Shown here in pieces: positions 1 through 10,842 of a stretch of DNA of 10,842 nucleotides (the first letter of the stretch is position 1; every line of letters begins with the position of its first letter). The notes below the pieces were generated by a model. It saw only the letters and a list, made by a program, of their open reading frames with translations, was not told the origin of the DNA and made no database searches. The position numbers were made by a program, and so were the translations under genes. The stretch is from Oscillospiraceae bacterium (GTDB lineage: Bacteria > Bacillota > Clostridia > Oscillospirales > Oscillospiraceae), in assembly GCA_031280325.1 (NCBI GenBank), contig JAITGW010000016.1, positions 1 through 10,842 of the forward strand, in the 5' to 3' direction.

Positions 1-3000
1 AGCCCGACGCGCCCGTAGACCACGTCCAGCCTCCGCGCCCGCTGTGCGCCGCGTTGGAATATACATCCGCCGCGATGACAAACGGCTCCGCCCGATAACG
101 CTCCGCATCACGCTCCCGCGGGCATATCGCGCGCAGCACCTCCCAGCCGTCGCCGGCGCGCCCGGTCAGATACAGCCCCATTGCAAGCCACGCCGCGCCG
201 TGGGTATATTGCCCGCCGTTCTCTCGGAACCCGGGGCTGTATCCGCGGATATACCCCGGCTCGCGCCCGTCGTCGCCGAACGGCGGATCAAAAAGCTTTA
301 TGACGCCGCGCTCCCTGTCGAACAGACGCTTCAGCGCGGAGTCAAGCGCTTTTTCGGTCTTTGCGCGCTCCCCGCCGCCGAGCGCGGCGAAGGACTGCGC
401 TATGGAATCGATTTTGCACCCCGCACAGAGGCGGGAGCCGAGCGGCTCGCCGTCGTCATAATAGCCGCGCAGAAACCACGCGCCATCCCACGCGCAGTTT
501 GCCGCGGCGCTTGCCGCGGCGGACGCGTTCTCAAACGTTTCTTCCCGCTCCGCGTCTCCGCGCCCGCGCGCCACATGCGCAAAATCCTCCGCGACGCGGG
601 AGAAAAACCACGTGAGCCAGACGCTCTCCCCCCGTCCGCGGTGACCGACGAGGTTCATCCCGTCATTCCAGTCCCCGCCACCGATCAGGCACAAGCCATG
701 CTCGCCGTATCCGCGCTCTATGACAAGCTCCAGCGCCCGGGCGCAGTGTTCGTAAACGCTCTCGGCGTATTCCGATACGTCCGGATCCTCATATCTGTCG
801 CCCTCCCGCTCCGCAAGGGGCGGCGAAACGAGATACGGCGCGCGCTCGTCCCATATCCCGCACCCGCCCGCCGTCTCGGCATAGCGCAGCGCGGCGTATG
901 GCAGCCAAAGCAGATCATCGCTGCACCTTGTGCGCACGCCTCGTCCGTTTTGACCTGTTCCGGGATGCCACCAATGCGAGACGTCGCCCTGCGTATACTG
1001 GCGCGCCGCGCTTTTGAGTATATGCTCCCGCGCGAGCTCCGGGAAAAACGGGGCGAGATTCGCCGTGTCCTGAAGCTGGTCGCGGAAGCCGTATGCACCG
1101 CCGCACTGATACAGCGACGCGCGCGCGTAAAGGCGCGAGACGATCGTTTGATACACTGCCCAGCCGTTCATATATCGGTTCAGCGCTTCATCCGGCGACT
1201 CCAGGCGCACAACGCTCACGCGCTCATTCCAATATTCGCGCGTGCGCTTGAGCGACGCGAGCGCCGCGAGCGGTTCGGACAGCTCAAAAGCGTCCCTTTC
1301 GTCGCCGACCGCAATGACAAGAATCTCCGGACACAGAACTTCAAACGACGCGCAGGCGGGAGCGCCCGCACAGGCGTTCATACCGCCGCGACCGTCGGCG
1401 CGGGGCGCCGCGCGGGAGGCTGTAAGCACCTTAAACGGAGCGGAGCAGACGAACGCGACCGCGCCGCGCTCCGCAAAGTCCCGGTTATAGGGATTTTCGG
1501 CGAGGATTGCTCTCTGCCCGCGTTCTGCGTTTCCGACAGCGCTTGTTACAACGGTTCCGCCGTCCGTCACGCCGTCGGAAAGGCAAAGCTCCGCGCGATA
1601 CGACAATCGCCCGCCTTGCGCTCCCTCGATTATCAGCACGCGCGCGTTTTGGTCCGGCGGAACGAACATGGTTGTTGTTATCGCCCTGCCGCGAGCGCGC
1701 TTTTCCCAGCGGGCAAAGCCAAAGCCATACTCCGCGCGGCACGGGCTGCCGTCTGCGCCGAAAACCGACAAAGCCCCGCCGCCCGCGTCAAGCGTTATCC
1801 GCTCTCCGTCACGCAGGGAAAGCGAGTCGTTCGTCCACGGGGTGATCTTAAACTCGCGCGCGTTGTCCCGCCACATAAAGCCTCCGCCGCACTCTGTCAC
1901 AACCGCTCCGAAGCGCTCGTTTGCGAGAATATGACTCCATGCGTTTTTGGGCAGCGCGCTGCCGCACTCAAACACAAAGCTACCGTCTCCGTCATAGTCG
2001 CCGCGCGGCGTTTCCCTCGGCGGATCAAGAAATTGAACCGGCAAATGAACCGGCGGCTCCCCGCTTTTTTGCTCCTGACCAAGAATCAGCGCGGCGCGGG
2101 CGAGAACAAGCTCGCCCCGCTCCCCGTTTTCGCAGCAGAACACTCCGCCCCGCGCGCCATAGCTCTGCTCCCGCCCAAGCGCGCGCAGCTCCTCCATTAC
2201 CGTCTCGCGCACAAGGGATACATAGTCTCCGGCATCGTCGGAGAGGAATACGAGATCATATTTCACTCCGCACTCGCGCAGCAGCGCGTGGCATTCGATA
2301 TAGCTTCTGTACGGAATGCCGCACCCGCTCTCCGCGACGCACGCCGCGATTGGATAATCGCCGCTTATTCCAAGGCTCCACAGTCCGTTTACGCCCTGGG
2401 ACAGCGCCGCAATTTGAGCCTGAGTCAGCCTGCGGCCGTATGGCGGCGCAATAAGGCGCGGCAAAAGCTCCGCCGCAAGCGCGGCGCACCCCTCCTCAAG
2501 CCCGAGGCGCAACGCCCCGTCGGAGAGCGCGTCGCGGCATACGCACCCCGCTTCCAGCGCTTCCTGCGCGGCGGCGAGCGGATCCTCCCCCGGAAACGCC
2601 GCCGCAAGCGCGTATCGGACAGCCGCGGCTTCGCCCGCGCCGCCGCTGATTTGAACCTTTGAGAGTACGCACGGGTCAAGCGCCGCGCCGTCGCAGGACA
2701 CAATCGGCTGCGCGAGCGCGCTTTCCAGCGCTAAGATTCCGCCCCGCCCGAGCGCCGCCTCGCGCGACGAGCTAATCTCCGCCGCCCTGTCACAGACAAG
2801 CGCGCAGACGGGTGCGCTTTCGCGGTTTTTCGGACGGCGCGAGACGACAACGCCCGGCGACGTGATCAAGGTTTCGATAGAGAGCTTTGAAAACGCCGGA
2901 TGGGAACGATATTCGCTCTCCCGTTCAAGCACAGGCTCAAAATAGCAGAACACCTCGCCGGAAAACTCTTTATCGGACGTTACCGTGATTTCCCGAAGCT

Positions 3001-6000
3001 CGCACGGACGCGCGGCTGACAGCCTCACCGTGACGCACGCTTCAACTCCGCTGCATTCCGCGTACAGGCGGCACTCTCCGCCTCCGAAAACCGCGCGGTA
3101 TGACACCTGCGGATCGTAAAACGGCGCGGCTTGCAGCGGGATTAGTTTATCCGCCGTTTTGAGAAAGAAGAGCATTCCGCAGTCCAAGCTGTTAAAATCA
3201 AAGTCCGCGCGGGCGAGCAGCTTTCCCGCAAATTCGCTGCGGCTGCGTCCGGAGGCGGAGACAATAACGCTGTACTGCCCGGCGCGCAGCAGCGTCGCCG
3301 GCGGATGGGGCGTGGCGACAAGCGTTGTTTCAAGGAGCGCGGGAGAACTTTCCGACGGAGCCTGCTTTTTCGGAACGTCGTCCTTCGGCGATGTTATGGC
3401 AATCCCTCCGCGCGGTACGCGCTGACGCAGCAAGTCTGCATGGGCGCGCAGCTCCGCGTCCGCCATAAAGCGGCGGCGGAGTAAATTGCCGCAGAGCGCG
3501 TTCGTTATGGCAAGCAGACTCATCCCCAGGTGGTGCGCCATGAACGTGCGCACCGACTCTCCCGCGCCGCCCGCGCCGGAGCGGGTGTAATCAACAGCGT
3601 CATAAAAGCCGTATTGCCCCGCCGCGCCAAGTTTTTGGAGCGAGAGAAGATTGCCCACAGCGCCGGCGGGATCGACCGCAAGCGCGAGAAACGACGCATA
3701 GGGCGCGACGACGTCGTCCTCTCCCGCGCCTCGGCGCAACGCAAGTCTCGGCGCGCCGTGCGCCTTATAGCGATATGCGCCGCCCGCGTCAAGCGCGCTA
3801 TACGCGCTCTCCGAAGCTCCCCACGGATGGCTGCGCGCGGCGCGCTTGTGGGCATATACGCAGAATCGCGCGCTCTCTTCCATGAGCGAATTCTTGTAAA
3901 GCGGCAAAAAGAGCGCGGGCATGAGATATTCAAACATCGTTCCCGTCCAGGAGGCGCAGCCGCGATAGCCGCCCTGTCCGCGCTCTGCGCGGGAGAGCGC
4001 GCCCCAATGCTCGCCCGGGATTTGGCCGCGGGAAATCGCGATATAGCTCGCCGTGACGTTCTCCGACGCGAACAGGTCATAGCAGCTTTCTGAAAATTCC
4101 CCGTCAAGATCGTCCCAGCCCAGGCGCAAAAGCTTCCTCCGCTCGTCGTACATTATCCCAAAATCCATATCCCGGTACAGCTTGTCGGCGCGGAGCGCCA
4201 AATCAGCTTCGCCCCATTCATAAAGCCCTTCCCGCAGGAGAGTGAGACACGCCGCAAGGTTGCCGTTGTCCACCGTGGAGACAAAGCGCGGCGGCATAAC
4301 CTCCAACGTTTCGGTGTCGTACCAGTTGTACGGGTGTCCGCGCCATTTCGGAAGCGCCTCAAGCGTTCGGAGCGCGTTGTTTATAATCTCCGCCGCGCGA
4401 GCGCGCGCAGCAAGCCCCAGTTCTCCCGCGCAGTGCGCCGACGCGAGCGCAAGACCTATGTTCGTCGGCGAGGTTCGCCGCGCGAGAACGGGCTCTGCCT
4501 CTGTTTGGAGATTGTCCGGCGGAAGCCAATTGTCCTCCTCTGTGAGATATCGTTCGAAAAAGCGCCAGATCAGCTTTGCCTGCCCGCGCAGAAACGCTGC
4601 GCCCGGGATTGCGTCGGCTGCCTTTCGCGCGCCAAGCCGGTTCAGCGCGGCAAGATACAGCGGCGACGCGATAAGACACGCCGCGGCGGCTGCTGCCGGC
4701 GGGCGCCGCGTGAACAGCAGCGCCGTCAGCGCGCAGGCAAGCCCCGGCGCGCAGAACGAATACCAGCGCAAGATATCCCTGCCGGGTGCGTGCGCGCGTT
4801 TTTCGCCGGCCTGCGCCGCCGTCGTCCATTCAAGCAGCCTGCGCCGCGAAACAAGCGTCCGCCAAAGCGCCGCGCCGACCGCGCGCAGATTCACCGCGCA
4901 TTCGCACGGAAGCAGCAGCGCCCGCGCAAAGCAGCGCGCGATTGTCGCGTCGGCGGCCTCGGGCACAAATGAGAAATATCGGCGCAGCAGGGCGCGCGGG
5001 CGCGCCAGCTTTGCGAAAACGCCAATAAGCTCTCCCATAAACATTGCAAGCGCGGCGAGCGCCGCCGGCGCGGCAAATTTCTCCGACAGCGCTCCGGCAA
5101 GAAATGCCGCCGCGGTCGCTATCGGCAGCAAGCTGCGGCGCAGATTATCCAAAAGCTTGAACCGGTCAACGGCGGGAAGCCCTCCGAAAAAAATCCATCC
5201 GGCGTTCTGCCAGTCTCCGCGGACCCATCGGCTCTGCCGGGAGTAATACGCCCCGGGAGTCTGCGGATGTCCGTCTGTAAGCTCGACAGAGCCGAGATAG
5301 CCGCAGCGCAGGATCGCCCCCTCGAGAATATCGTGGGAAAGCAGCGCGCTCTCGCGGAACCGCCCATCAAGACAGGCTGCGGCGGCGTCAATGTCGAGTA
5401 TTCCCTTTCCAAAAAATGTTGACGCGCCGCAAAGGCTGTCATAAAGCTCCGGCGCGCCGCCGCCATACGGATCAAACCCGCCCTCTCCCGCCGTCAGGCG
5501 CGCGAACTCCGTACCCGCCGCGTCGGAGAGCGCTGTGACGATACGCGGCTGCAAAATGCCGTGACCGCGCGTTATGAGCCGGCGCTTTTCGTCGATTTCA
5601 CAGCGGCAGGACGGATGCAGCATTGCGCCGGCCATGCGCCGCGCGCTGCCGGGCGTCAAGCGCGTGTCCGCGTCAAGCGTTATAAGAAATTTCACCTCCC
5701 GCGGCGCGCCGCCGGCAATGATTCCGGAGGTTTTGCCGCGCAAAAACCGGCACAATTCGATTATCGCGCCGCGCTTGCGCTCCCACGGACGCCACACTCC
5801 GTCGCGCTCACACCTGACGCGGTCGCGGTAAAACAGGAAAAACCTCTCGCCGTATTTGGCGTTCAGCCTCTTCAGCGCCGCGCGCGCCGCGCCTATTATC
5901 TCGCCGTCTCCAGGGGCGACCTTCCGCGCGCCCTCCGGCAGATCGCACAGCAGACCGAGGGTCAGGTTGTCGCCGCAGTCGCGGTTAGACAGCCAATATT

Positions 6001-6940
6001 CCTCAAGCAGGCGCGCCAGCGCACTCGCCTCATACGCATTTGGAACAAGCGCGCTTATCACGGCGAGCGTCCGCCCTGTCTCCGGAATTCCGTCCCGCAG
6101 CTCCAGCCTCGGGGTAAAGCCGCGCGGCAGAGCGCTCCGCGCGAAATGATCCGTCAGCGTTTTGACAATCTCCGACGCCGGAATGAGCGCAAGCGCCGCC
6201 GCAGCGCCGGAGCGCGAGATCGCCGCGACGAGCGCGCACAGCCAGAGCGTGAGCAGAGCATTCGCCGCAATGTACACTCTGCTACGAATCACGCCGATGT
6301 CGCTCATAAAAAGCGAGCCGACGTGAACGCCGCGCTTTTCCGCTTCCCGCACAAGCTCCCGCGCGTATGCTCCCTCCCCGCGGCGGAGGGCAAGCGCCCT
6401 GTCCGCGATAATTCTGCGGTACCTCGCGCGGCTCTCCTTGTCCATTGCTGCGTAAACCCCGTCGGACGCTTCGCGCAGCGCGCGGTCGATTGCGCTCGCT
6501 CCCTCGAAAACCTCCGTCGGGTCAAACCCCGATAAAAACCGCAGGGACGTGACGCCATCTGCAATCGTCTGTTGATTTCCCTTTGGTGTTTCGGCCGCTT
6601 TTCCGATTGCCGCGATAATTTCAAGCCTCAGCGCCGGGAGAAACAGACACTGCGCGCGCTCTGACAGCGGCTTTGCCAGCGCTGAGAGGTACCGCGCGAT
6701 ACGCGCCTCGTCAGCCGCGCCGACGCGCGCTTGATACTCCTCCGCGGCGCGCTTCGCGGCGCCGTATTCCCCTCTGAATCGGCGAAGCTCAAGCACCGCC
6801 GCTGACGCGGAGTTGAACTCGCGCTCTGCAAGATACCTGTTATCGCGCAGCCATGCAAGCTCTGACCGCGCGCCGGGCGCGTCCGCCGCCGATTTGATTA
6901 TATTCAATCCACGCCGGGCGCGGGCGATATGTGACTTCAT
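1..6940 (-). CDS. ndvB: Cyclic beta-1,2-glucan synthase (NdvB/ChvB type; GT84 + GH189-like + GH94), 3' end beyond window
   Basis: This gene encodes a membrane enzyme that polymerises UDP-glucose into beta-1,2-glucan, cyclises it and trims its length. The start is ATG at 6940-6938 with GGAGGA 5 bases upstream; the frame stays open to the left edge (about 2,313 codons). N-terminal landmarks are a WLRDN motif near residue 40 and RGVHVG near 205, followed by hydrophobic segments at about 217-250. The GT84 core shows a LDADT motif (D423, D425), SHDILEG (D537) and QSRWVRGDWQ (Q569-W572), then membrane segments at about 602-645 and 723-770. The glycoamylase-like cyclisation module spans about 790-1140, with LPPDN, RTSPTNIG, YDLFASE (E960), GTMFEYLMP, GASESAY (E1044) and VVAPYASFLAL; E960 and E1044 are my candidate acidic pair. 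Beta-sandwich regions lie at about 1180-1350 (HPAFSKL) and 1660-1900. The GH94 module shows GFRDQLQD (from 1951), HWWHP, SDDLLWLPY and GGGDWNDGM (D2090, family general-acid motif). It breaks off at GWTWSTGASG, so probably under 200 residues are missing. Family assignment is firm; cyclic rather than linear product is inferred from the module order. Confidence 0.93.
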   Translation of the reverse strand, partial: MKSHIARARRGLNIIKSAADAPGARSELAWLRDNRYLAEREFNSASAAVLELRRFRGEYGAAKRAAEEYQARVGAADEARIARYLSALAKPLSERAQCLFLPALRLEIIAAIGKAAETPKGNQQTIADGVTSLRFLSGFDPTEVFEGASAIDRALREASDGVYAAMDKESRARYRRIIADRALALRRGEGAYARELVREAEKRGVHVGSLFMSDIGVIRSRVYIAANALLTLWLCALVAAISRSGAAAALALIPASEIVKTLTDHFARSALPRGFTPRLELRDGIPETGRTLAVISALVPNAYEASALARLLEEYWLSNRDCGDNLTLGLLCDLPEGARKVAPGDGEIIGAARAALKRLNAKYGERFFLFYRDRVRCERDGVWRPWERKRGAIIELCRFLRGKTSGIIAGGAPREVKFLITLDADTRLTPGSARRMAGAMLHPSCRCEIDEKRRLITRGHGILQPRIVTALSDAAGTEFARLTAGEGGFDPYGGGAPELYDSLCGASTFFGKGILDIDAAAACLDGRFRESALLSHDILEGAILRCGYLGSVELTDGHPQTPGAYYSRQSRWVRGDWQNAGWIFFGGLPAVDRFKLLDNLRRSLLPIATAAAFLAGALSEKFAAPAALAALAMFMGELIGVFAKLARPRALLRRYFSFVPEAADATIARCFARALLLPCECAVNLRAVGAALWRTLVSRRRLLEWTTAAQAGEKRAHAPGRDILRWYSFCAPGLACALTALLFTRRPPAAAAAACLIASPLYLAALNRLGARKAADAIPGAAFLRGQAKLIWRFFERYLTEEDNWLPPDNLQTEAEPVLARRTSPTNIGLALASAHCAGELGLAARARAAEIINNALRTLEALPKWRGHPYNWYDTETLEVMPPRFVSTVDNGNLAACLTLLREGLYEWGEADLALRADKLYRDMDFGIMYDERRKLLRLGWDDLDGEFSESCYDLFASENVTASYIAISRGQIPGEHWGALSRAERGQGGYRGCASWTGTMFEYLMPALFLPLYKNSLMEESARFCVYAHKRAARSHPWGASESAYSALDAGGAYRYKAHGAPRLALRRGAGEDDVVAPYASFLALAVDPAGAVGNLLSLQKLGAAGQYGFYDAVDYTRSGAGGAGESVRTFMAHHLGMSLLAITNALCGNLLRRRFMADAELRAHADLLRQRVPRGGIAITSPKDDVPKKQAPSESSPALLETTLVATPHPPATLLRAGQYSVIVSASGRSRSEFAGKLLARADFDFNSLDCGMLFFLKTADKLIPLQAAPFYDPQVSYRAVFGGGECRLYAECSGVEACVTVRLSAARPCELREITVTSDKEFSGEVFCYFEPVLERESEYRSHPAFSKLSIETLITSPGVVVSRRPKNRESAPVCALVCDRAAEISSSREAALGRGGILALESALAQPIVSCDGAALDPCVLSKVQISGGAGEAAAVRYALAAAFPGEDPLAAAQEALEAGCVCRDALSDGALRLGLEEGCAALAAELLPRLIAPPYGRRLTQAQIAALSQGVNGLWSLGISGDYPIAACVAESGCGIPYRSYIECHALLRECGVKYDLVFLSDDAGDYVSLVRETVMEELRALGREQSYGARGGVFCCENGERGELVLARAALILGQEQKSGEPPVHLPVQFLDPPRETPRGDYDGDGSFVFECGSALPKNAWSHILANERFGAVVTECGGGFMWRDNAREFKITPWTNDSLSLRDGERITLDAGGGALSVFGADGSPCRAEYGFGFARWEKRARGRAITTTMFVPPDQNARVLIIEGAQGGRLSYRAELCLSDGVTDGGTVVTSAVGNAERGQRAILAENPYNRDFAERGAVAFVCSAPFKVLTASRAAPRADGRGGMNACAGAPACASFEVLCPEILVIAVGDERDAFELSEPLAALASLKRTREYWNERVSVVRLESPDEALNRYMNGWAVYQTIVSRLYARASLYQCGGAYGFRDQLQDTANLAPFFPELAREHILKSAARQYTQGDVSHWWHPGTGQNGRGVRTRCSDDLLWLPYAALRYAETAGGCGIWDERAPYLVSPPLAEREGDRYEDPDVSEYAESVYEHCARALELVIERGYGEHGLCLIGGGDWNDGMNLVGHRGRGESVWLTWFFSRVAEDFAHVARGRGDAEREETFENASAAASAAANCAWDGAWFLRGYYDDGEPLGSRLCAGCKIDSIAQSFAALGGGERAKTEKALDSALKRLFDRERGVIKLFDPPFGDDGREPGYIRGYSPGFRENGGQYTHGAAWLAMGLYLTGRAGDGWEVLRAICPRERDAERYRAEPFVIAADVYSNAAHSGRGGWTWSTGASG

Positions 6941-7073: not shown

Positions 7074-7102
7074 TTGACAAATTGCGGGAGCGGGGGTATA
7101 AT
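7074..7102 (+). promoter_or_regulatory. Consensus housekeeping-sigma promoter of the alr-like/mutL/miaA operon
   Basis: TTGACA at 7074-7079 and TATAAT at 7097-7102 are both perfect matches to the housekeeping sigma consensus, with an optimal 17-base spacer. The predicted transcription start is near 7109, giving a leader of about 44 bases before the GTG at 7153. This is the strongest promoter seen in the window and implies robust expression of the downstream genes unless it is repressed. Confidence 0.9.
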
Positions 7103-7137
7103 ATATCTAATTGTATGCTGTGCGCAAAATTCAGAGA

Positions 7138-7152: not shown

Positions 7153-8217
7153 GTGAAAAACTTAGTCATCGACCGGCGTGTAGTAAAAAGCAATCTCCAG
7201 GCGGCGAAAGATCGAGCGGACGGCGCGCGACTGATTGCGGATTTGTCCGCAAACGCCCAGGGAATGGGTCTTATGGACATTGCCCTGCTCCTGCGGGACG
7301 AGGGCGTGTCGGACTTTGCGGTGTCCGATCCCCGCGACGCGCGCTTGCTGCGGGAGAACGGCTTTACAAACACGCGGATCATGATGCTGCGCTCCACCGC
7401 CGACCCGGACGAGCTTGGCGAGCTGCTTGATCTCGGCGTCGTTACGACGGCGGGGAGCTATGAGTCCGCCGTCGCCATAAACGGAATTGCGGAGGCAAAG
7501 TCGATCACGGCGCAGATACAGGTCAAGGTAGACACCGGGCTTGGGCGATACGGCTTTTTGCCGGAGGAGGTTGACCGGATCGCGGCGATATACAAATACA
7601 TGTCGTCTGTGGAGGTTATCGGGACGTTTACGACGTTTTCCGTCTCCTGGGGTCCCAAAAAGCAGACGCTTGAGCAGCTTGATCGCTTCAACTCCGTTCT
7701 CGACAAGCTCATGTCGATGGGGCTTGAGCCCGGCATGGCTCACTGCTGCGACTCCGGCGCGCTGTTCCGCTATGATTTCGCGCATATGGACGCTGTCCGC
7801 GCAGACACCGCGCTTTCCGGCCGCGTTCCGGGCAAGGCTTTGCCGGGACTTTTGCGCGTCGGCTGTATCGAGGCGGGGATCGAGGAGATTGCCTGGGTCA
7901 AAAAAGGGCATCGCTGCGGGGCGGAGCGCACCGTCGTGACCAAGGCGCCGACGAAGCTTGCCGTACTCTCCGTGGGCTATTACCACGGCTTTGGAGTGGA
8001 GCGCCATATCTCGGCAATGACCGTGGCGGAGGCTCTACGCTATCGCACGCGCAAGCTGTATGTCCGCATTAACGGACAGCGGGCGCGCGTTCTCGGCGTG
8101 GTGGGGCTTCTGCACACGCTTGTGGACGTGACAAAAATCGACTGTACTGTCGGCGACACCGCCGTTATGGATGTTGATCCGGTCAACGTCAAGGGTCTGC
8201 CGATATTGTACAGATAA
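7153..8217 (+). CDS. Alanine racemase-family protein lacking the catalytic Lys and Tyr (probable pseudoenzyme)
   Basis: The gene encodes a 354-residue protein with the full alanine racemase layout: an N-terminal TIM-barrel-like domain followed by a C-terminal beta domain. Genuine racemases interconvert L- and D-alanine for peptidoglycan using PLP bound to a lysine in a K-A-N-A-Y-G motif. Here that stretch reads LSANAQGMG, so the lysine is Ser32. The second catalytic base, the tyrosine 19 residues before the GY(A/Y) tyrosine, is Ala257 (motif CGAERTV, with Y276 in VGYYHG). The usual T-H-F histidine is Thr161 (TTF), and GYADG has become GYYHG. Several other family positions persist: K125 and R132 in KVDTGLGRYG, H197 and S201 in HCCDSGA, and R216 in AVRAD. 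The C-terminus (VGLLHTLVDVTKIDCTVGD) resembles clostridial racemase paralogues I recall, in which the Lys and Tyr are present. The frame is intact, with a strong promoter and codon use like its neighbours, so decay to a pseudogene is less likely than a changed role. It probably does not racemise alanine; its real function is unknown. It leads the mutL-miaA operon. Confidence 0.88.
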   Translation: MKNLVIDRRVVKSNLQAAKDRADGARLIADLSANAQGMGLMDIALLLRDEGVSDFAVSDPRDARLLRENGFTNTRIMMLRSTADPDELGELLDLGVVTTAGSYESAVAINGIAEAKSITAQIQVKVDTGLGRYGFLPEEVDRIAAIYKYMSSVEVIGTFTTFSVSWGPKKQTLEQLDRFNSVLDKLMSMGLEPGMAHCCDSGALFRYDFAHMDAVRADTALSGRVPGKALPGLLRVGCIEAGIEEIAWVKKGHRCGAERTVVTKAPTKLAVLSVGYYHGFGVERHISAMTVAEALRYRTRKLYVRINGQRARVLGVVGLLHTLVDVTKIDCTVGDTAVMDVDPVNVKGLPILYR

Positions 8218-8269: not shown

Positions 8270-10135
8270 GTGCCGAAAATAAAGGAACTCAGCCGGGTTC
8301 TTGCCGATATGATCGCCGCCGGCGAGGTGGTGGAGCGTCCCGCCTCCGCCGTAAAGGAGCTTTGTGAAAACGCGCTTGACGCGGGCGCAACAGTCATAAC
8401 GGTCGAAATAAAGGGCGGCGGACTCACGTTTCTGCGCGTGACGGACAACGGCTCCGGTATAGAGCGCGACGATGTGCCGCGCGCGTTTCTGCGTCACGCG
8501 ACAAGCAAAATACGCGACATTTCAGGACTTGAATCCATCGCCACTCTGGGCTTTCGGGGAGAAGCGCTCGCCGCGATCTCCTCCGTGTCGCGCGTGGAGC
8601 TTCTCACTCGCTCCGATACGGAGGACGAGGGCACGCGCGCGCGGCTCACAGGGGGCGTTATCACGGATATTTCCCCCGCGGCGCGTCCCGCCGGCACAAC
8701 GGTCACGGTGCTGGATCTGTTTTTCAACACGCCGGCGCGCCAGAAATTCATGAAGACAGACCGCGCCGAGGCGGGCGCCGTTCTCGCCGCCGTGACGCGC
8801 ATTGCGCTCTCGCGTCCGGATGTATCCGTGCGCTATATCCGCGACGGCGCGGAGGAACTTCACACGCCCGGCGACGGCAGGGCGGAGTCCTGCGTTTACA
8901 GCGTCCTTGGCCGGGAGTTTATATCGGGCGCGCTGCCCGTGGAGTACGACGGAGACGGAGTTCGGACACACGGCTTCGTGTCAAAGGTTTCGGCGCTGCG
9001 CGGCAGCAGGACGGGGCAGTATTTCTTTGTCAACGGACGGGCCGTGCGATCCGCAACGCTTCAGGCGGCTCTTGAGCAGGCGTATCGCAACAGGATGTTC
9101 ACCGGCAGATTCCCCGCGTGCGCGCTGTATATCGAGACGGGCTTTTCCAAGCTCGACGTGAACGTGCATCCGGCGAAAACGGAGATAAAATTCCTCTTCG
9201 AAAAGCAGATTTTTGACGGGGTTTATTACGGCGCGCTCTCCGCGCTTGATTCAGACGGCGCCATACCGGCAAGCGGCGGGCAGTTAACGCCTAATCGCCG
9301 CGAGCCGGAGGAAACGATACCCACGGGGCAGTCTGCCGTTATCACGCCGCCGAAATCCGGCTATGGCGGCGGGTTCGCGCCGCGAAAATCGGATATTGCC
9401 CGTCCGCGCGGATTTTCTGACGCCGCCTCTCTTCCCGTTCGCGACAGGAACTCCGTCGCCTATAACGCGGGCGTCGATATAATCGTCTATGACGAGCCGC
9501 GACCGCGGCAAAAGCCCGCCGCGCCGGCGGAGCCGGAATATGCGGAGAAAATTGCGGACGAGACGCCACTGCCCCCGTTCCGCGTTGTCGGCGAGGCGAT
9601 GAACACATACATAATCGCCGAAGCGGGCGAGAGGCTCGTCTTAATCGACAAGCACGCGGCGCACGAGCGGATTCACTTTGACGCGCTGTCCCGCGGCGCG
9701 TGGACGCCGATGCCGCAGGTGCTGCTCTCACCGATAGTCATAACCGCCGAGGCGGACGCCATCGCCGCGCTGCTTGAGCGCGCGGAGCTTTTGCGCGGAC
9801 TCGGCTTCGAGCTGGAGGCGTTCGGCTCCGGCAGCGTCGCCGTGCGCCAGCTTCCGTCGGAGCTTGACCTTGACCAGGCCGAAAGCGTTCTTTCCGACAT
9901 CGCGCGGGAGCTTATTCTCGGCGGGCGCGACTTGTCCCGGCGTCGGGACGAGATGTACGCCGCAATTGCCTGCAAGACCGCGATAAAGGCGGGGCGCAGC
10001 TCTCAGCCGTCGGAGCTTTACGCGCTGGCGGCGCGCGTTCTTTCCGGCGAGGTGCAGTATTGCCCGCACGGGCGGCCGGTTGCGTTTGAGATCACCAAAA
10101 CATTTCTCGACCGCGGCTTCAAGCGAATCTCATGA
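8270..10135 (+). CDS. mutL: DNA mismatch repair protein MutL, endonuclease type
   Basis: MutL couples mismatch recognition by MutS to strand incision. The GTG start gives 621 residues. The N-terminal GHKL ATPase is complete: IAAGEVVERPAS from about 15, KELCEN with the catalytic glutamate at E30 and N34, DNGSGI (59-64), RHATSKI (75-81), GFRGEAL (94-100), then GTTVTVLDLFFNTPAR. A DVNVHPAKTE motif closes the transducer domain. A variable, Pro/Arg-rich linker follows at about 330-430. The C-terminal domain carries the metal-dependent nicking-endonuclease motifs DKHAAHERI (from D460), ACKTAIKAG (from A567) and CPHGRP (from C598). This places it with the nicking MutL proteins of Gram-positive bacteria and most bacteria without MutH, not with the MutH-dependent E. 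coli type. Lys461 replaces the Gln of the textbook DQHA motif, which I recall as common in clostridia. No mutS lies upstream in the window. It overlaps miaA by 4 bases. Confidence 0.97.
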   Translation: MPKIKELSRVLADMIAAGEVVERPASAVKELCENALDAGATVITVEIKGGGLTFLRVTDNGSGIERDDVPRAFLRHATSKIRDISGLESIATLGFRGEALAAISSVSRVELLTRSDTEDEGTRARLTGGVITDISPAARPAGTTVTVLDLFFNTPARQKFMKTDRAEAGAVLAAVTRIALSRPDVSVRYIRDGAEELHTPGDGRAESCVYSVLGREFISGALPVEYDGDGVRTHGFVSKVSALRGSRTGQYFFVNGRAVRSATLQAALEQAYRNRMFTGRFPACALYIETGFSKLDVNVHPAKTEIKFLFEKQIFDGVYYGALSALDSDGAIPASGGQLTPNRREPEETIPTGQSAVITPPKSGYGGGFAPRKSDIARPRGFSDAASLPVRDRNSVAYNAGVDIIVYDEPRPRQKPAAPAEPEYAEKIADETPLPPFRVVGEAMNTYIIAEAGERLVLIDKHAAHERIHFDALSRGAWTPMPQVLLSPIVITAEADAIAALLERAELLRGLGFELEAFGSGSVAVRQLPSELDLDQAESVLSDIARELILGGRDLSRRRDEMYAAIACKTAIKAGRSSQPSELYALAARVLSGEVQYCPHGRPVAFEITKTFLDRGFKRIS

Positions 10136-10842
10136 GCCGCGTTGTCGTCATAGCCGGCGCTACCGCGACCGGAAAAACGCGGCTTGGCATTGAGCTTGCG
10201 CGACGGCTTGGCGGAGAGATCATCTCGGCGGACTCTATGCAGCTTTACCGCGGTATGGACATCGGCACGGCAAAGCCGACGCGGGACGAAATGCGCGGAA
10301 TCACCCACCACATGATAAGCGTCGCCTCCCCTGCGGAAAACTATTCCGCCGCGCGATACGCGCGCGAGGCCGGCGCGGCTGCGGACGATATTCTGGCGCG
10401 CGAAAAGCTTCCGATCATCGTCGGCGGCACGGGACTGTACATCGATGCGCTCATTTACGGCAGGGCTTTTACGGTTCCCGGCGACGCCGCGCTCCGCTCG
10501 GAGCTGGACGCGGAGTATGACGCGCTCGGCGGAGCCGCGATGCTGCTTCGCCTCCGCGGATTTGACCCCATCACCGCCCTGCGCCTCTCTCCAAGCGACA
10601 GGCGGCGCATTATCCGCGCGACCGAGGTCTACCGCCTTACGGGAGAGCCGATATCAGCGCACGATGCGAAAAGCAGGCTCACCCCGCCCAGATTTGACGC
10701 CGTGCGTTTCTCGTTGAATTACCGCGAGCGGGGCGTTCTGTACGCGAGAATTGACGCGCGGGTGGATGAAATGCTCTCCCGCGGGCTGGTCGGTGAGGTG
10801 AAATCCCTGCTTCGCTCCGGCGTTTCACGCTCCGGCACGGCA
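10132..10842 (+). CDS. miaA: tRNA dimethylallyltransferase MiaA, 3' end beyond window
   Basis: MiaA transfers a dimethylallyl group to N6 of A37 in tRNAs that read codons starting with U, in the cytoplasm. The ATG overlaps the mutL stop (ATGA), implying translational coupling. The 237 residues present cover most of a protein usually near 310 long. Visible motifs are the P-loop GATATGKT (9-16), the substrate-binding ISADSMQLYRGMDIGTAKP (30-49, with the conserved D34), VGGTGLYI (97-104), SDRRRIIRATEVYRLTGEP (starting near 155), and RVDEMLSRGLVGEV toward the right edge. The P-loop has alanine where the family usually has proline (GPTAxGKT); the functional glycine, lysine and threonine are kept, so activity is expected. 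mutL-miaA adjacency is common in bacteria and supports both calls. Confidence 0.97.
   Translation, partial: MSRVVVIAGATATGKTRLGIELARRLGGEIISADSMQLYRGMDIGTAKPTRDEMRGITHHMISVASPAENYSAARYAREAGAAADDILAREKLPIIVGGTGLYIDALIYGRAFTVPGDAALRSELDAEYDALGGAAMLLRLRGFDPITALRLSPSDRRRIIRATEVYRLTGEPISAHDAKSRLTPPRFDAVRFSLNYRERGVLYARIDARVDEMLSRGLVGEVKSLLRSGVSRSGTA

Follow-up and report, generated by a model that had tools for sequence, protein, structure and literature searches.

The window analysed here, i.e. the whole stretch of 10,842 nucleotides of contig JAITGW010000016.1 from an Oscillospiraceae bacterium (assembly GCA_031280325.1), carries a gene of the alanine racemase (Alr) type, followed by mutL and miaA (Table 1). 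The sequence-only reading had described it as an Alr paralogue with both catalytic residues replaced and a frame open for 354 codons, and the frame indeed runs from a GTG start without interruption. An alternative upstream TTG start at 7111 would lengthen it; 354 aa is the length of most of the 120 listed homologues (see below), as opposed to the longer TTG-start form. On the other strand, the frame resembling a cyclic beta-1,2-glucan synthase gene occupies the place that miaB holds in most orthologous loci.

Table 1. Features of the window, with positions counted from its first nucleotide; subclade A and intact (lysine-bearing) rows are those of the residue comparison described in the text
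Feature	Position	Strand	Basis or remarks
Cyclic beta-1,2-glucan-synthase-like gene	2..6940	-	2313-residue frame off window edge; GH94 catalytic, supersandwich, glucoamylase and weak GT2 domains
Promoter-like site TTGACA-17-TATAAT	7074..7102	+	12/12 consensus matches
Lysine-less Alr2 pseudo-racemase, subclade A, 354 aa	7153..8217	+	Pfam/NCBIfam profiles, alignment, model, orthologues
Asp30 (Val in lysine-bearing relatives and canonical Alr)	7240..7242	+	Codon GAT; D in 197/199 subclade A rows, V in 195/200 intact rows
Ser32 at PLP-lysine position	7246..7248	+	Codon TCC; alignment
Thr161 (His in intact relatives)	7633..7635	+	Codon ACG; T in 172/199 and S in 24/199 subclade A rows, H in 200/200 intact rows
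Asp200 (Asn in intact relatives)	7750..7752	+	Codon GAC; D in 199/199 subclade A rows, N in 193/200 intact rows
Asp218 at phosphate-cup glycine	7804..7806	+	Codon GAC; D in 148/199 subclade A rows, G in 199/200 intact and 12/12 canonical rows
Ala257 at catalytic-tyrosine position	7921..7923	+	Codon GCG; alignment
mutL, next gene downstream	8270..10135	+	TIGR00585, E 9.6e-150
miaA, runs off the window	10132..10842	+	TIGR00174, E 1.2e-63

The barrel plus beta-domain fold of alanine racemase was recognized both by Pfam (Ala_racemase_N, E 3.6e-39; Ala_racemase_C, E 2.7e-10) and in the predicted model, which has a pLDDT of 93.2 and matches Alr along its whole length, in agreement with the earlier statement that the whole fold remains. 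Among solved structures, the top profile match was the catalytic domain of the VanT serine racemase (4ECL). The protein nevertheless scored below the NCBIfam cut-off for alr (TIGR00492; 131.6 vs 168 bits) as well as that of the VanT models (best score 131.5 vs 460 bits).

Upstream of the gene, the single promoter-like site found in the region compares with 0.8 expected in shuffles, while sites scoring at least 9 were present in 55/64 stretches upstream of subclade A genes (i.e. the branch of relatives to which the window gene belongs) and in 9/64 after one simple base shuffle of each. These counts are suggestive only of a promoter upstream of subclade A genes.

Residues of the PLP site and the pocket

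Alignment to solved racemases places Ser32 on the position of the Schiff-base lysine and Ala257 on that of the catalytic tyrosine, as had been proposed, and the replacement of the T-H-F histidine by Thr161 was likewise borne out. A paper on Clostridioides difficile Alr names ten PLP and catalytic residues, i.e. K39, Y43, K130, R137, S208, R223, G225, I226, Y268 and Y356 (PMC4089486). By alignment and spacing, these correspond in the window protein to S32 (K39), Q36 (Y43), K125 (K130), R132 (R137), S201 (S208), R216 (R223), D218 (G225), T219 (I226) and A257 (Y268), while the counterpart of Y356 would lie in a C-terminal segment that the window protein lacks, the tyrosine of this segment being Y356 in our reading. 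Therefore, six of these ten residues are changed or missing and four are kept. The Tyr356 segment is also absent from the intact Alr2 rows aligned (Alr2 being the name coined here for the FemAB-linked second lysine-bearing racemase of Clostridia).

The positions of Tyr36 and Tyr257 have been released to many residues, with a tyrosine at 257 in five subclade A rows. K125, R132, H197, S201 and R216 had been listed as retained, and all five are present in the window protein; K125, R132, S201 and R216 are found in most subclade A rows, and H197 is Ser or Phe in 15/199. We also looked for another lysine that could have taken over PLP. Since the K125 position, which is Lys in 180/199 subclade A rows, is Gln in 137/144 rows of subclade C, no invariant pocket lysine is left and this possibility was discarded. 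Two further points of the sequence-only reading fared differently: the change of GYADG to GYYHG is there, but its His278 also occurs in 121/200 lysine-bearing rows and is no mark of loss, and Tyr276 does not serve as a retained landmark of lost chemistry, with Trp at this position in 133/200 lysine-bearing rows. Both were dropped as marks of loss.

For the residue comparison, 199 rows of subclade A, 11 of B, 144 of C, 200 lysine-bearing and 12 canonical rows were used, representing 176, 9, 141 and 196 distinct cores for A, B, C and the lysine-bearing group, respectively. Among the sites that are fixed in the intact group and fixed otherwise in subclade A are V30D, K32S/T, H123Q, H161T/S and N200D. 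As the A, C and intact locus rows were sorted partly by residue 32, with the exceptional locus L086 excluded, row counts at position 32 are partly circular; we therefore also counted residues in three search lists that were not sorted by residue. In the window-type list (n=120), D30 was found in 119, S32 in 117, Q123 in 120, T161 in 112 plus S161 in five, and D200 in 120, whereas V30, K32, H123, H161 and N200 were each found in 119–120/120 of the intact-type list. The C-type list (n=120) showed V30 in 105, T32 in 111, H123 in 118, Q161 in 120 and G200 in 120, i.e. this sister subclade has fixed other residues than A at the same five sites. Based on predicted strands and the alignment to Alr, most of the changed sites would lie at the barrel ends of the strands that carry the PLP site. 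New fixed residues that differ between sister subclades argue against pure decay, and the pocket appears, with less certainty, to have been rewritten and not just emptied.

Orthologues, descent and gene neighbourhood

Of 5.8 billion proteins searched, 120 were listed as close homologues, the window copy among them, with Ser (117) or Gly (3) and never Lys at residue 32; close relatives, for which intact residues would have pointed to an error or recent decay in this copy, thus share the substitutions. Sorted by search list alone, Lys at position 32 occurred in 0/120 window-type and 0/120 subclade C proteins and in all 119 readable proteins of the 120 of the intact form. Lysine-less orthologues are present in many genera, including an ortholog 66 % identical to the window protein in the named type strain Sporobacter termitidis DSM 10068. 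In 65 subclade A coding sequences, Asp30 was written with both Asp codons, and residue 32 with ten different codons, i.e. those for Ser (of both codon sets), Thr or Asn. The lysine-less state is therefore more than chance. The dN/dS ratio was 0.008–0.144 in 12 pairs with dS < 0.35, all from a few clusters of near kin, and its median over 734 pairs with dS 0.2–1.5 was 0.25, i.e. not uniformly low. The window-type protein is thus kept under selection and is not a pseudogene.

Of the 150 genomes surveyed from the window's family, 145 gave some Alr-type match. Apart from canonical alr, 76 paralogue matches were listed (window included), and 68 were used in a first tree (L021, L022, L025, L027 and L029–L032 were left out); the lysine was missing in 44 of these and kept in 24. 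In a second, more careful tree of 70 rows, a branch with 100/100 support splits 66 Alr2 paralogues from four canonical alr sequences, the window grouping with Alr2. Three subclades of lysine-less sequences were obtained, supported at 100/99 (A, which includes the window), 99/94 (B) and 100/99 (C) and joined by nodes with support of 100/98 (A+B) and 82/95 (A+B+C). The window clade of a 215-row FastTree contains 87 tips, none with Lys and one unread, and the node uniting all lysine-less rows is supported at only 0.20.

The lysine state requires a minimum of two changes on the 70-row tree, i.e. one loss and one change for L086 (1-1600, genome G037), which lies inside subclade C with Lys at the PLP position and Ala at that of the catalytic tyrosine, and is either an intermediate or a reversal. 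A single loss of the lysine in one lineage of the window's family is likely rather than proven from these trees, as the weak A+B+C node (82/95, and 0.20 in FastTree) would also allow for more than one. The closest relatives with lysine are the lysine-bearing Alr2 proteins, 36–46 % identical to the window protein in the alignment; the model of one intact Alr2 had a pLDDT of 90.4. Outside the family, 83 matches were found at order level at E 1e-40 or better, of which 22 loci were read: all had Lys and His161, and 17/22 the aligned Tyr257. Hence, the idea that the catalytic set is intact everywhere outside the family had to be abandoned, five loci having Thr (four) or Ser (one) instead. These five (L195–L198 and L201) keep the PLP lysine and have Gly at 200. 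At class level, Lys, Tyr and His were present in 23/23 loci read.

All 23 class-level loci also have a FemAB gene within their 1.5-kb flanks. FemAB lies upstream in 31/36 lysine-bearing paralogue loci (the exceptions being L086, L091 and L097–L099) and in 0/111 lysine-less loci, with none in the window; flank lengths vary, and loci from different collections overlap (e.g. L038 and L132), i.e. they are not independent genomes. Counted by genome, FemAB was found in 19/19 genomes with a FemAB-linked intact copy, at most 88 bases away in 18 of them, and was missing from 32/33 lysine-less genomes tested, the exception being a remote 37 % copy elsewhere in the genome. A strict coupling of FemAB loss to lysine loss is excluded by G013, G063 and G076, which have a lysine-bearing copy without any FemAB match; G013, where the search likewise gave no match, carries one lysine-bearing and one lysine-less copy. 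Since the losses of FemAB and of the lysine amount to roughly one event, the correlation is unreplicated. The neighbour itself is a PF02388 protein (E 1.8e-64) similar to FemX alanyltransferases, with a score below the cut-off of that family. The FemAB and Alr2 gene pair is widespread in Clostridia (the lysine-bearing ones of L052–L099; L219–L241). From this neighbourhood, we infer that the Alr2 ancestor served the peptidoglycan bridge.

The surroundings of the lysine-less copies are of another kind. mutL is next downstream in 88/90 subclade A and B loci, and the two remaining loci run into a contig end within 500 bases. In subclade A, a divergent miaB adjoins in 66/79 loci, with mutS beyond it in 26, and a YggS gene (TIGR00044) lies downstream in 46/79; many of the rest are not long enough for it to be seen. 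The NCBIfam identity of the MutS, MiaB, YggS and HemZ neighbours was checked on one member each; one member of the SepF neighbours gave no NCBIfam match at E 1e-10, SepF being named by eye. In subclade C, a divergent miaB was found in 12/21 loci and dtd follows in 13; in five subclade C loci and L086 there come next an ATP-grasp protein (identified by eye and through weak family matches), an Asp/cysteate-type racemase and a MurE-like ligase. L064, L067, L080, L086, L088 and L112 have the MurE-like ligase, with a fused ArgB-type amino-acid kinase in four of the six, and their neighbours suggest a cell-wall or amino-acid-ligation pathway. Altogether, the neighbourhood suggests a link to cell-wall amino acids for the ancestor and for some of subclade C; for A it gives no specific lead.

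A separate intact alr had been proposed as a check, and full alr genes were found in relatives, i.e. over the cut-off in 32/33 lysine-less genomes, as well as in G137, which has an intact copy. The exception is the window's own genome, which is 64 % complete and where the sole find was an alr-like fragment, with lysine, at the edge of a contig; a full alr is present in G105, a member of the same genus. The fragment (G000:C136:5-523, L002) has the motif VLKNDAYGMG, scores 72 bits and is divergent from canonical alr. With a full alr in 32/33 genomes, the cell has no need of the lysine-less protein for D-alanine. The 12 canonical alr loci fetched have a different neighbourhood, mostly behind a gene for NAD(P)H-hydrate dehydratase/epimerase. 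Second alr copies with open frames of 713–757 residues were seen in G030, G078, G118, G020, G058 and G141, and are possibly VanT-like membrane serine racemases.

Possible role of the lysine-less protein

By its sequence, the window protein is a pseudoenzyme, i.e. an enzyme homologue without the conserved catalytic residues, and this part of the earlier reading is now strongly supported by the shared substitutions, the low dN/dS of the closest pairs (about 0.01–0.14), the separate full alr of relatives and the complete predicted fold. Presumably, it neither racemises amino acids nor holds PLP as an aldimine. With a probability of roughly 60 %, we consider it a conserved, PLP-free pseudoenzyme descended from FemAB-linked Alr2 that would act by binding through a rewritten pocket. 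By sequence, it groups with the lysine-bearing Alr2, whose gene across Clostridia comes as a pair with that of a FemAB transferase of the peptidoglycan bridge. One lineage within the window's family lacks the catalytic Lys, and almost always the Tyr as well, and FemAB is missing from 32/33 of the genomes tested; the window-type protein is kept under selection upstream of mutL. The new fixed set of D30, S/T32, Q123, T/S161 and D200 might form a pocket for a different small ligand, so that the protein could act as a sensor, carrier or allosteric partner. Binding of a new ligand is suggested by this fixed residue set, and the protein may have a new role such as sensing or partner binding, as the sequence-only reading had put forward.

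Inactive paralogous subunits regulate an active partner in some other enzyme families. The window protein might likewise be a dead subunit that joins the cell's own functioning Alr, or a different enzyme of the Alr fold, in a hetero-oligomer and regulates this partner, a reading that we consider unlikely. It would be in line with the full alr kept in 32/33 lysine-less genomes, with the retained fold and Alr2-wide residues (R224, G237, E245, G256 and P343), and with the substrate entryways of Alr, to which both monomers of the dimer contribute across their interface (PMC4089486); a dead paralogue reported to activate trypanosomatid deoxyhypusine synthase would be a precedent (PMC3663545). However, canonical alr lies in another neighbourhood in the 12 loci fetched, and no newly fixed set of residues would be required for a partner subunit as such. 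The acidic residues and histidines of the barrel (D30, D127, H197, D200 and H278) could also make up another catalytic or metal site in a new PLP-independent enzyme, D30 and D200 having been gained and fixed in subclade A and the other three being mostly kept; with H197 replaced by Ser or Phe in some subclade A rows, and D127 and H278 not specific to the pseudoenzyme, such a site seems quite improbable.

The retention of K125, R132, S201 and R216 in most subclade A rows would suit residual non-covalent PLP binding and thus speaks against a PLP-free protein. A binder or carrier of PLP or a vitamer in the manner of YggS/PLPBP, without a Schiff base, might also be read from the YggS gene downstream of many subclade A copies, but the phosphate cup has changed (with various residues at the Y43 position and mostly Asp at that of G225) and the Tyr356 segment is missing, as it also is from the intact Alr2 rows aligned, which makes this very unlikely. 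As for a decaying pseudogene or a sequencing error, for which only the missing residues speak, we regard it as practically dismissed by the same substitutions in the 120 listed proteins and many genera, the open frames and dN/dS < 1.

Returning to the PLP-free binding protein, it is tempting to extend this reading to the whole group: a peptidoglycan-bridge racemase would have given rise, in Oscillospiraceae, to receptors or regulatory subunits that do without PLP and fall into three subfamilies, each with its own fixed pocket and gene neighbourhood, the first pseudoenzyme family of the Alr fold to be described, a proposal to which we would give even odds. A search of the open-licence literature for inactive, paralogous or FemX-linked racemases, pseudoenzymes of fold type III and the gene of Sporobacter found no description of a lysine-less family of the Alr fold. 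Many gut bacteria carry the protein, and where it is named "alanine racemase", the name may be misread as D-alanine supply. Moreover, the group offers a rare series, from a lysine-bearing paralogue with a partner gene, via genomes without the partner and without the lysine, to subclades with different fixed residues. The transition from a vitamin-B6 enzyme to a binding protein could thus be tested directly among close relatives, one of the carriers being a named type strain.

Comparison with known systems

Antizyme inhibitor is a paralogue of ornithine decarboxylase, i.e. kin of a barrel-type PLP enzyme that has been kept for protein binding. In principle, the window protein may work alike; antizyme inhibitor, however, is eukaryotic and belongs to another enzyme family. 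The VanT serine racemase (4ECL) has the same fold, from which the window protein differs in lacking the membrane domain and the catalytic residues and in falling below the VanT cut-offs. Compared with Alr (EC 5.1.1.1, TIGR00492), the window protein has the PLP lysine, the catalytic tyrosine, Tyr43 and the T-H-F histidine together with the next Asn replaced, the phosphate-cup Gly changed to Asp and the Tyr356 segment missing, and scores 36 bits under the cut-off. Alr2 shares the short C-terminus and the Alr2-wide residues with the window protein but, unlike it, has the Lys, nearly always the Tyr and the His, and is usually found behind femAB.
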